Source: Desulfosporosinus sp. FKB (lineage in GTDB: Bacteria; Bacillota; Desulfitobacteriia; Desulfitobacteriales; Desulfitobacteriaceae). Taken from it: a stretch of 64,000 nt of DNA. The notes under the pieces are model-generated. The model had not been told where the DNA came from. It did no database searches and worked only from the letters and a program-made list of their open reading frames with translations. The DNA is taken from positions 124,001 through 188,000 of the forward strand of contig NZ_NADJ01000036.1 in the NCBI RefSeq assembly GCF_002196705.1, written 5' to 3'. The stretch's first letter is position 1; each line of letters starts with the position of its first letter. Made by a program: the position numbers and the translations under genes. Of the stretch, positions 3,809 to 52,121 are shown piece by piece.

Positions 3809-4747
3809 TTATTTTTTCGCCAGAGCTTCGCGAACGGCTTTCACGAGACCTTCTTTTCCCAATCCATATTTCTCAAGAAGTTCGTAAGGGCGTCCGGACT
3901 CTCCAAAGGAATCCTTGAGGCCGACCCGTACCATGGGTGTCGGCAGCTTTTCTCCCAAAATCTCGGCAATGGCACTGCCCAAACCGCCGATAATGTTGTG
4001 CTCTTCTGCAGTTACAACGGCTCTTGTCTCTTTAGCCACACGCAGGATTGTCTCTTCGTCAAGAGGTTTTACTGAAGAAACATTAACAACACTGACGCTG
4101 ATCCCTTCACCGGCTAATAGTTCAGCAGCTTCCAGCGCGGCAGCTACCATCAGGCCGTTGGCCATAATAGCAACATCGGTTCCTTCTTTGAGAACCTTTG
4201 CCTTCCCGATTTCAAAGTGATAGTCCTCACCAAAGAGCACAGGCACTTCTAAGCGTCCCATGCGAATGTAAACAGGACCTTCGTACTCTGCAGCCGCCAA
4301 AACCATCTGGCGAGTTTCTTCCCCGTCTGCAGGTACCAGAACCACCATATTCGGGAGCGCACGCATAATGGCCACATCTTCTATAGCTTGATGTGAGCCG
4401 CCGTCTTCACCGACAGAGATCCCTGCATGAGTTGCAGCAATCTTAACATTCAGTTTCGGATAGGCAATAGAATTGCGAATCTGCTCAAATGCCCTGCCGG
4501 TAGCAAAAATAGCGAAACTACTAGCAAAAGGGACTTTTCCGGCGGCAGCTAAACCTGCTGCCGTTCCCAACAAATTCCCTTCAGCGATGCCCATATTAAA
4601 GAAACGTTCAGGATAGTTCTTGCCAAATTCCGCAGTCTTCGTCGACTTCGACAAATCCGCATCTAAAACAACGACATTAGGATTTTCTTTCCCCAGGATA
4701 AGAAGAGCTTTGCCGTATGCGTCTCGTGTTGCAACTTTATTCGCCAA
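3809..4747 (-). CDS. Transketolase, C-terminal subunit
   Basis: Second half of a split transketolase, 312 residues: the pyrimidine-binding domain (NMGIAEGNLLGTAAGLA, with the Glu that activates thiamine diphosphate) and the C-terminal domain (EEHNIIGGLG). With the upstream subunit it transfers two-carbon ketol units in the non-oxidative pentose phosphate pathway. The start is a TTG at 4747 with GAGGAGGGAC nine bases upstream, and it overlaps the stop of the first subunit by 11 bp. A longer reading to 4810 lacks a ribosome site and would sit inside the neighbour. A deoxyxylulose phosphate synthase is excluded by the split layout. Confidence 0.93.
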   Translation of the reverse strand: MANKVATRDAYGKALLILGKENPNVVVLDADLSKSTKTAEFGKNYPERFFNMGIAEGNLLGTAAGLAAAGKVPFASSFAIFATGRAFEQIRNSIAYPKLNVKIAATHAGISVGEDGGSHQAIEDVAIMRALPNMVVLVPADGEETRQMVLAAAEYEGPVYIRMGRLEVPVLFGEDYHFEIGKAKVLKEGTDVAIMANGLMVAAALEAAELLAGEGISVSVVNVSSVKPLDEETILRVAKETRAVVTAEEHNIIGGLGSAIAEILGEKLPTPMVRVGLKDSFGESGRPYELLEKYGLGKEGLVKAVREALAKK

Positions 4748-10353: not shown

Positions 10354-10490
10354 AAAAAATACACCTTCCTTGATTATTATAGCTCAAAGGATAATTCCTT
10401 GAACCAATACTTACCTTTAGGAGGATAACCAAGTTTGGGGAAGTCTAAACGTTAGCGGGACTTGTATGACACATCGTTCCGTGTCAGGGG

Positions 10491-10557
10491 CGTGTCAGGG
10501 GGACGGTCCTTGTGACACGCGGAGGTTGCGTGTCGCCAGGACCGTCCCCCTGACACG
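10491..10557. repeat. REP-like nested palindrome (GGGGACGGTCC type)
   Basis: Outer arms 10491-10510 (CGTGTCAGGGGGACGGTCCT) and 10538-10557 are perfect 20-bp complements. Inside them is a second stem, GACACGC (10514-10520) with GCGTGTC (10528-10534). The core GGGACNGTCC recurs at 49.7-50.1 kb and 55.1 kb. Such dispersed palindromes resemble REP elements mobilised by Y1 transposases. The surrounding 10354-10627 stretch has no gene; it also contains GACACATCG...GTGTC fragments of the same kind. Confidence 0.75.
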
Positions 10558-49485: not shown

Positions 49486-49747
49486 CCGTCAATCCCCCCT
49501 TTAATCATTCTTGCCAGGGTTACCTATAGCTAACCAAAGAAGCCTCTATTACACAGGAAGAGTCCATGCAATCCCCCTTAAGGCCTAGCAGAACTCTCCC
49601 AAGTTAAATCATAGTTTTCCTTCCAAAGAACAACCCAATCCGTCCCAAGACCAGGACGCAGTGTCACACGAGCGCGAAGTCTTTACGTAAGCAGAAAAGC
49701 AAACTCCGTGAAAGCGACCCCAGATACGGGGCAGCGCACAAGGATTT

Positions 49748-49799
49748 GTGTCAAGGGGACCGTCCCTCTAATGTGTCAAGGGGACCGTCCCTCTAACAC
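49748..49799. repeat. Two tandem REP palindromes in repeat unit 1
   Basis: GTGTCAAGGGGACCGTCCCT occurs twice, at 49748-49767 and 49774-49793, followed by CTCTAACACG fragments. The core is the same GGGGACCGTCC palindrome as at 10.5 kb and 55.1 kb. Confidence 0.8.
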
Positions 49800-50057
49800 G
49801 CCTCTAACACGTAAACGCCCCCTGTTTCAACTACCCTCATCCATTTCCCAAAACTGACGGCGCACATGAAATGTGCCGTCTCCCGAGCCTCCGGTCGGGC
49901 CTTAACGTCATCTGAGGAAATACTTAAAGTTCTCCAAAGAACAGCCCAATCGGCCCGAGACCAGGACGCAGTGTCACGCAAGCGCGAAGTCTTTACGTAA
50001 GCAGAAAAGCAAACTCCGTGAAAGCGACCCCAGATACGGGGCAGCGCACAAGGATTT

Positions 50058-50085
50058 GTGTCAAGGGGACCGTCCCCTTAACACG
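50058..50085. repeat. Single REP palindrome in repeat unit 2
   Basis: GTGTCAAGGGGAC pairs with GTCCCCTTAACAC with one mismatch around a central C. It sits at the same site of the unit as the double copy in unit 1. Unit 3 lacks it. Confidence 0.8.
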
Positions 50086-50241
50086 CACCCTTAACACGCA
50101 AGTACCCTCATCCATTTCCCAAAATTGACGGCGCACATGAAATGTGCCGTCTCCCGAGCCTCCGGTCGGGCCTTAACGTCATCTGAGGAAATACTTAAAG
50201 TTCTCCAAAGAACAGCCCAATCGGCCCGAGACCAGGACGCA

Positions 50242-50504
50242 GTGTCACGCAAGCGCGAAGTCTTTACGTAAGCAGAAAAGCAAACTCCGTGAAAGCGACC
50301 CCAGATACGGGGCAGCGCACAAGGATGTGCGCTGCCGCCATTGCGCCAAGGATGGCGCATATGGTGCGATAATCTCCGGTGGAGATTATCGCCGTAGGCG
50401 GGTTCTCCAAAAAATGCTATCGCCGGAGGATGTACCCCGCTCCCCAGAGAAAAAGCTTGAACGGTAGTTTGCTCTGCGTCGTATGACTGAGCGCTGTGTG
50501 ACAC
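50242..50504. mobile_element. MITE-like element with imperfect inverted ends and internal hairpin run
   Basis: The left end (50242-50302, GTGTCACGCAAGCGCGAAGT onward) matches the reverse complement of the right end (50442-50504, starting GTGTCACACAGCGC) over about 55-60 bp: GTGTCAC, GCGC, AGTC, ACG, GCAGA, AGCAAACT, CCGT and AGC align in order. Between them lie hairpins GGCAGCGCAC/GTGCGCTGCC (50311-50336, loop AAGGAT), TGCGCC/GGCGCA (50342-50359, loop AAGGAT) and GCGATAATCTCC/GGAGATTATCGC (50366-50392). It has no transposase gene. Its right end is 6 bp from the pyrG stop. Confidence 0.65.
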
Positions 50505-50510
50505 AAGTCC

Positions 50511-52121
<1,611 letters not shown>

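Follow-up and report, generated by a model that had tools for sequence, protein, structure and literature searches.

The 64,000-nucleotide stretch of Desulfosporosinus sp. FKB analysed herein (the window) carries, in the gap between pyrG and femX, an array of ~900 bp (about 49608-50510) made up of two truncated units and one complete 276-nt element. A sequence-only reading of the window had described three direct repeats with periods of 311 and 271 bp, the last being part of an element with imperfect inverted ends and the other two resembling its left halves, and this description held. Specifically, a 131-nt direct-repeat family starts at 49641, 49951, and 50222 (spacing 310 and 271), alongside a 231-nt repeat pair (spacing 271) and a 24-nt family (spacing 311 and 271), and the fold of the last unit bears out the inverted ends, with arms slightly longer than first given. 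The truncated units match core positions 1-93 only, at 96.8% (unit 1) and 98.9% (unit 2) identity, and are thus left halves cut inside hairpin 1. Directly after them stands TGTCAAGGGGACCGTCCC, which is exact at 49749, 49774, and 50059 and is found with at most 3 mismatches at 7 sites in the 64 kb (shuffles, 0); the stretches after both units contain GGGGACCGTCC. That a complete copy directly follows the pyrG stop codon, with two truncated copies joined in tandem to the GGGGACCGTCC repeat, is well supported (Table 1). Minus-strand ORFs of 62 and 137 aa overlap the array.

Table 1. Features of the array in the pyrG-femX gap (window coordinates)
Feature	Position	Strand	Basis
Whole inserted array, pyrG stop to femX-side flank	49608..50510	+	Alignment to the near-empty site of G005; left boundary approximate
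Truncated unit 1: core left half, broken off in hairpin 1	49656..49748	+	Identity to core
Two TGTCAAGGGGACCGTCCC copies	49749..49791	+	Motif scan
Spacer hairpin GACGGCGCACATGAAATGTGCCGTC	49856..49880	.	Read in sequence; similar hairpins upstream of other copies
Truncated unit 2	49966..50058	+	Identity to core
Third TGTCAAGGGGACCGTCCC copy	50059..50076	+	Motif scan
Second spacer hairpin	50127..50151	.	Read in sequence
Complete long-form TwoAYGGAY-type element	50235..50510	+	Fold, RF01731 match, alignment, further near-complete copies
5' arm of closing helix	50235..50295	+	Consensus structure, covariation
Hairpin 1, GGA at 50323-50325; ACAAGGAUGU fits CsrA SELEX consensus	50311..50336	+	
Hairpin 2, GGA at 50350-50352	50337..50365	+	
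Hairpin 3, long forms only, with stretch to about 50434	50367..50391	+	Alignment, consensus structure
3' arm of closing helix, with highly conserved TAGTTTGCTCTGCG	50440..50510	+	Alignment
pyrG TAG stop codon, adjoins element end	50511..50513	-	

The presence of the element beside pyrG varies within the genus. Among 27 readable pyrG 3' ends, 14 have a right end near the stop codon, 5 carry remnants (judged by eye), and 8 have none. An empty site between femX and pyrG, proposed as a check on the earlier reading, was approached in the relative G005, where the TAG is followed by about 35 nt and then TTAACTT...GAGTTCTGC. Both flanks of this near-empty site align with the window, with the break directly after the TAG, which argues for gain or loss of the array as a single block; this alignment gives no sign of a target-site duplication.

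Several further features of these loci are recorded here in their own right. A conserved hairpin, AGAGTTCTGCTA...ACTCTTCCT, lies upstream of femX (~49555-49598); several genomes of the genus have it in their pyrG-femX gap, whether or not the element is there. At the pyrG loci of G016 and G020 (L117 and L118), a foreign-looking GGCCAtGGATGGCC-type hairpin follows pyrG inside or beside the element, and at L118 it sits within hairpin 1. Elsewhere, another copy of the element (L006:1000-1540) is preceded by about five tandem units of ~108 bp, each ending, by eye, in CCAGGACGC(A/T)GTATGAC; the length of the array differs between sites.

Family assignment and distribution

At gathering score, the 64-kb window had no Rfam match, and HEARO/omega RNA was rejected on that ground. 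Analogies to integron attC sites and group II introns were also set aside. At lax thresholds, the best match of the window copy was to TwoAYGGAY, RF01731 (34.2 bits, E 0.0024, 57 nt over the two central hairpins), and the three other lax matches in the array region had E values of 0.43 or worse. Because 34.2 bits lies below the RF01731 gathering cut-off of 43 bits, we base the term long variant for the window copy on homology; by score it is not a member. Copies elsewhere in the same genome come closer: a short copy (L033) spans the full 168-position model with a score of 43.2 bits, just above the cut-off, another (L031) reaches 40.0 bits, and two tandem copies with arms of another kind (L152) score 48.7 and 50.2 bits, above it. 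In relatives, short copies that also fit our genus model R1 (>100 bits; the R1 search took in 91 sources) reach 51.9 bits (L096). An alignment of 11 own-genome copies shows that the short form lacks ~65 columns present in the window copy, corresponding to hairpin 3 and its neighbourhood. The element has the two adjacent hairpins with GGAY loops and the outer helix round them that mark TwoAYGGAY, and the short copy matches the model throughout. The assignment of the window copy, by homology, as a long Desulfosporosinus variant of this family is therefore well supported, and the suggestion in the sequence-only reading that no named family has this make-up fails. Across 60 genomes (own included), RF01731 was found at E 0.001 in 35 and above the cut-off in 25, with 0 matches in 14 control genomes.

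Two observations on L152 stand apart. The tandem pair there (L152:2051-2495) is a second TwoAYGGAY subfamily of the own genome, with two copies ~284 bp apart and other arms, and the same locus (4233-4330; contig C35, - strand) holds a Guanidine-I riboswitch-like match of 52.8 bits, below its gathering score of 63.

The many genomic copies with the same two ends that the earlier reading had named as support were found in the own genome and in relatives. The array region has 30 matches in its own genome, several of them pieces of one copy, and the element was matched in 28 of 28 further same-genus genomes, weakly in 3 of 7 other genomes of the family, and in 0 of 24 at the order level. A pattern drawn from the most conserved end of the element occurs in at least 114 stretches of a public genome collection; among 80 listed, the title names Desulfosporosinus in 79 and Bacillota bacterium in one. 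Viral contigs held 0 exact instances of that pattern, and a similarity search of plasmids and phages gave no match. More broadly, with 6 candidates scored in each of 398 genomes of the phylum, TwoAYGGAY turned up in at least 50. Identity over 80 nt of the right end is 0.870 for copies at the same site, 0.862 within the same genome, and 0.857 otherwise, and these near-equal values suggest that the copies either are kept close to a single consensus or undergo homogenisation.

Stop-codon adjacency and mobility

The position of the copies relative to genes is largely uniform within the genus. Right ends were defined by profile (dropped if the profile end was <70 or the score <35) and counted as lying at a stop codon when found -14 to +60 nt from the stop of an opposite-strand ORF of at least 100 codons (60 if cut by the stretch end), ORFs for this and the orientation counts being called mechanically. 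In a first set, 71 of 75 distinct right ends lie at such a stop, and in 36 of these cases the distance is +1 or +2. A second set of 59 ends was drawn from public contigs, some of which come from genomes already represented in the first (identical ends were removed, as were 3 near a stretch end), and 52 of these lie at a stop. Together, 123 of 134 right ends are at an opposite-strand stop codon, compared with 77 of 1180 random positions, and 121 of 134 are within 18 nt of the stop. The 75 ends of the first set fall into 20 flank clusters and are therefore not independent; 17 of the clusters occur in at least two genomes. Many sites lie with housekeeping genes: Pfam searches of 14 clusters found a CTP synthase domain, an RNA methyltransferase, SMC, PhoH, HemN-type, cell-wall hydrolase, CDP-alcohol transferase, and cytidine deaminase proteins, a tRNA-ligase anticodon domain, an SRP signal-binding domain, DeoC, a GTPase, a His-biosynthesis protein, and an HD protein.

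The stop codons at the 71 first-set ends are TAG (42), TGA (22), and TAA (7), so that TAG is over-represented relative to own-genome ORFs (42/71 versus 27/109, on ends that are not independent); by majority per site, the counts are TAG 10, TGA 7, and TAA 1. In some cases the TGA that ends the gene lies within the element (at -12, 9 in one set and 9 in the other). The nearest left ORF of the 75 ends is on the - strand in 59 cases and on the + strand in 10, with none in 6. Around 30 distant loci (two incomplete), orientations are (+,-) 9, (-,-) 9, (+,+) 9, and (-,+) 1, and gaps to called ORFs outside the genus are usually longer than within it. Divergent gaps are rare (1/30), as would be seen if the repeat were removed from promoters. 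In G007 and G008 the copies seem to favour one strand, but the element follows gene orientation and genes are mostly co-oriented with replication; replication-strand bias was therefore set aside as a cause.

One explanation of this placement is that the element acts like a REP at the 3' end of the host mRNA, on the strand whose loops read UCC, where a structure after the stop codon would slow termination or block 3' exonucleases and so tune the upstream gene, the GGA loops being incidental. The right ends at opposite-strand stops in both sets and the 17 clusters held in common by at least two genomes, many with housekeeping genes, would fit such a role, and there is a precedent in REPs (PMC12306157, PMC3733652), which reportedly stall ribosomes when they lie no more than 15 nt from a stop codon (PMC12306157). 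Against it stand the even gene orientation and usually longer gaps outside the genus, GGA loops that are more constant than this role needs, and a consensus that folds better on the other strand; on balance we find this explanation somewhat unlikely.

Distant genomes such as G177 contain several palindromic copies that look alike (by eye). In G177, direct repeats of 25, 14, and 20 nt flank three of the four copies retrieved, compared with 8-13 in controls; by eye, these repeats are local terminator hairpins. At the other 17 of 20 distant copies, flanking direct repeats did not go beyond controls. Of the target-site duplications that the sequence-only reading named as support, none is visible at pyrG, and direct repeats exceeded controls at 3 of 20 distant copies only, all in G177. 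PF01797 was not found in G299, G276, or G331, each with several copies, and is therefore not the general mover.

GGGGACGGTCC, which is related to TGTCAAGGGGACCGTCCC, occurs on both sides of a Y1-transposase gene of the own genome (L233), and among eight Y1 loci, GGGGACGGT-type motifs lie on both sides at L233, on one side at L232, and on neither at the other six. Since GGGGACCGTCC-related motifs flank the Y1 gene at L233, we read the array as two interleaved repeat families. A further GGGGACGGTCC-type cluster, three matches with 3 mismatches, lies at 10477-10555 of the window. The end motif of the element itself, GTGTCACAC, was not found at any of the eight Y1 loci, and a RAYT was rejected as its mover on that ground. 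TAG is found near the element end in 66 of 134 cases (control windows, 40/402), and GTAG, considered as a target, was rejected, occurring at 26 of 134 ends only.

These results bear on whether the element is nothing but a palindromic repeat, selfish or decayed, that has no function as RNA, its hairpins acting as folded single-stranded DNA during movement and its covariation arising from templated correction and gene conversion. The alike copies in distant genomes and the direct repeats of G177 would be expected of such a repeat, as would right ends that are hardly more alike at the same gene (the outcome of homogenisation) and the excess of TAG stops, although the sites are not independent. 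The direct repeats within the range of controls at 17 of 20 distant copies, the missing PF01797 in three multi-copy genomes, the lack of viral-contig, plasmid, or phage matches, the sites common to several species, and the constancy of GGA argue the other way, and we regard a purely selfish repeat as unlikely.

Structure, GGA loops, and CsrA

The complete element is strongly predicted to fold. Positions 50225-50512 fold at -140.5 kcal/mol on the - strand (z -9.1) and -145.9 kcal/mol on the + strand (z -10.3), with 0 of 200 shuffles as stable on either strand, and the ends pair through GGAC (50235-50238) and GTCC (50507-50510). A consensus structure from 17 long copies (4 own genome, 13 relatives) has 85 pairs; the row sets here are A3, which is A2 without L045 and with minus loci re-oriented, and A4, which is 15 of the 17 A3 rows (without L051 and the 568k copy) plus 5 loci. 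The covariance check called for by the earlier reading found 20 of 85 pairs in which both partners change in one or more sequences, against 9.0 +/- 1.4 in shuffles and 1-6 in slid versions, the structure being taken from the same alignment as was tested, which biases the comparison against the slid versions. The both-side changes sit in the closing helix, hairpin 1, and hairpin 2; hairpin 3 is conserved and has none. In palindromes, compensatory changes can also come from hairpin-templated correction.

Both halves of the earlier alternative, a MITE expanded in tandem or a structured RNA, have gained support through the many same-ended copies, the near-empty site, and covariation above shuffles; the target-site duplications have not. 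Neither outcome that the earlier reading had set as its refutation, a lack of any second genomic copy or of an empty site in relatives, was observed. It is well supported that the element is a dispersed palindromic repeat of REP/MITE type in which a closing helix surrounds two GGA-loop hairpins. Hairpin 3 may be a separate repeat, since short matches to it (G008:C3:111404 and 163991; G007:C1:1185780) stand with no other element part listed beside them.

As to strand, consensus folding favours the + (GGA) strand (-118.2 versus -103.4), and a G-U test on pairs common to both strands gives weak evidence (13 versus 7 cells); the G-U versus A-C asymmetry was dropped as strand proof, its first count being biased and the 13 versus 7 cells its unbiased version.

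The GGA of both loops is nearly invariant. In the 66 best of 148 rows (65 distinct, with one place perhaps counted twice, L058/L107), the hairpin 1 loop reads G in 64/65, G in 63/65, and A in 60/60 lettered cells, and the hairpin 2 loop G in 62/62, G in 61/62, and A in 56/56, gapped cells being set aside; the bases just before and just after GGA vary among the 65 genus copies. The CsrA SELEX consensus is reported as RUACARGGAUGU, in which ACA and GGA show full conservation and the loop of a hairpin presents the GGA (PMC4347634), and the exact string ACARGGATGT is present in the window copy and in 32 of the 65 genus copies. Outside the genus, a simple rule applied to the model strand finds at least two GGA-loop hairpins in 22 of 30 distant RF01731 loci, a result that in part follows from how the model is built.

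The own genome encodes CsrA (C35:214674), as do 285 of 398 genomes of the phylum. Counted by eye, CsrA is present in 48 of 50 TwoAYGGAY genomes (the exceptions being G237 and G289) and in 237 of 348 others (Fisher p 6.8e-6, phylogeny ignored). The 6-candidate scoring misses known TwoAYGGAY positives, namely G000 (the own genome), G008, G034, G039, and G041, all with CsrA. Loops of single copies were read from 84 of 148 rows, and among five genomes with copies read and no detected CsrA, four keep GGA and one has lost it. Those that keep it, with CsrA and FliW undetected, are G024 (98% complete), G237 (94%), G005 (79%), and G012 (67%). In G023 (94% complete, CsrA and FliW undetected), the single full core found has AAA and GAA loops, with stems largely kept (by eye), and in L051 (G017, with CsrA) the hairpin 1 loop reads GTA. 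Incomplete assemblies and shared ancestry weaken each of these single-genome cases.

Interpretation and relation to known systems

Our preferred reading, to which we give a probability of about 0.45, is that the element is a TwoAYGGAY-variant repeat whose core is kept for CsrA binding as decoy sites. Specifically, a non-autonomous repeat would be moved as DNA by a separate mover and be tolerated or kept at gene 3' ends. Its two-hairpin core would be retained through the binding of CsrA to GGA-strand transcripts, one dimer taking both loops, and these transcripts would act as scattered decoy sites. We infer that the core is kept for binding, with CsrA as the best candidate partner. The chief difficulty for the CsrA reading is the strand. 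Within the genus, the abutting gene, and mostly the left ORF too, runs on the strand opposite to GGA, so that read-through gives the complement of GGA; host mRNA carries that complement, and no sigma-70-like promoter for the GGA strand was found near the array.

Alternatively, the element could be an autonomous small-RNA gene of the CsrB kind, with its own promoter and terminator. A 2014 article (PMC4333381) proposes TwoAYGGAY as a CsrA-binding sRNA of Clostridia, a class it describes as identified, as of 2014, only in Gammaproteobacteria, and tandem copies would multiply the sites. A scan of the array for sigma-70-type promoters and simple terminator patterns found no sigma-70-like promoter nearby; it gave three terminator-like sites on the other strand, a number close to the shuffle mean of 2.3. 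No terminator stands where the 3' end adjoins the stop codon of the neighbouring gene, and there are many copies per genome; we regard an autonomous gene as very unlikely.

If the CsrA reading holds, the Firmicute counterpart of CsrB would consist of many scattered copies behind housekeeping genes and not of one sRNA gene. Tentatively, and with some doubt, a dispersed, mobile-derived repeat may spread an RNA with two CsrA-binding hairpins among the genomes of Clostridia, and might thereby tie gene ends to control by CsrA. The co-occurrence of TwoAYGGAY and CsrA across genomes is further support for the 2014 proposal, and no earlier cross-genome test of it was seen in the literature searched. 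If CsrA is not the partner, what Rfam lists as an RNA family may in reality be a DNA repeat.

Among known systems, the CsrA-sequestering sRNAs of CsrB/RsmX type resemble the element in their repeated sites and in GGA-loop hairpins that fit the CsrA consensus; the element differs in its many dispersed copies, its orientation against the host gene, and the lack of a detected promoter or terminator, with CsrA binding being predicted. Like MITEs, it is short, with inverted ends, many copies, and presence/absence variation, but with no target-site duplication shown in the genus, and no parent transposon came to light. Like the REPs and BIMEs of RAYTs, it is an intergenic palindrome near stop codons. 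GTAG termini of REPs are reported to supply TAG stops to flanking ORFs (PMC3733652), and REPs are given as 20-40 nt (PMC2817692). The element, in contrast, is 276 nt long and not a GTAG-tagged palindrome of that size, nor was its end motif found at the eight Y1 loci, the own-genome Y1 gene at L233 being flanked by another motif. It is closest to TwoAYGGAY RNA, with which it has in common two adjacent NGGAY-loop hairpins in an outer helix, and from which the window form differs by an extra hairpin module (about 50367-50434), arms found in this genus, truncated tandem units, and stop-codon adjacency. As far as the literature searched shows, the long form, the stop-codon adjacency of TwoAYGGAY, its nature as a dispersed repeat, and its association with CsrA are new.
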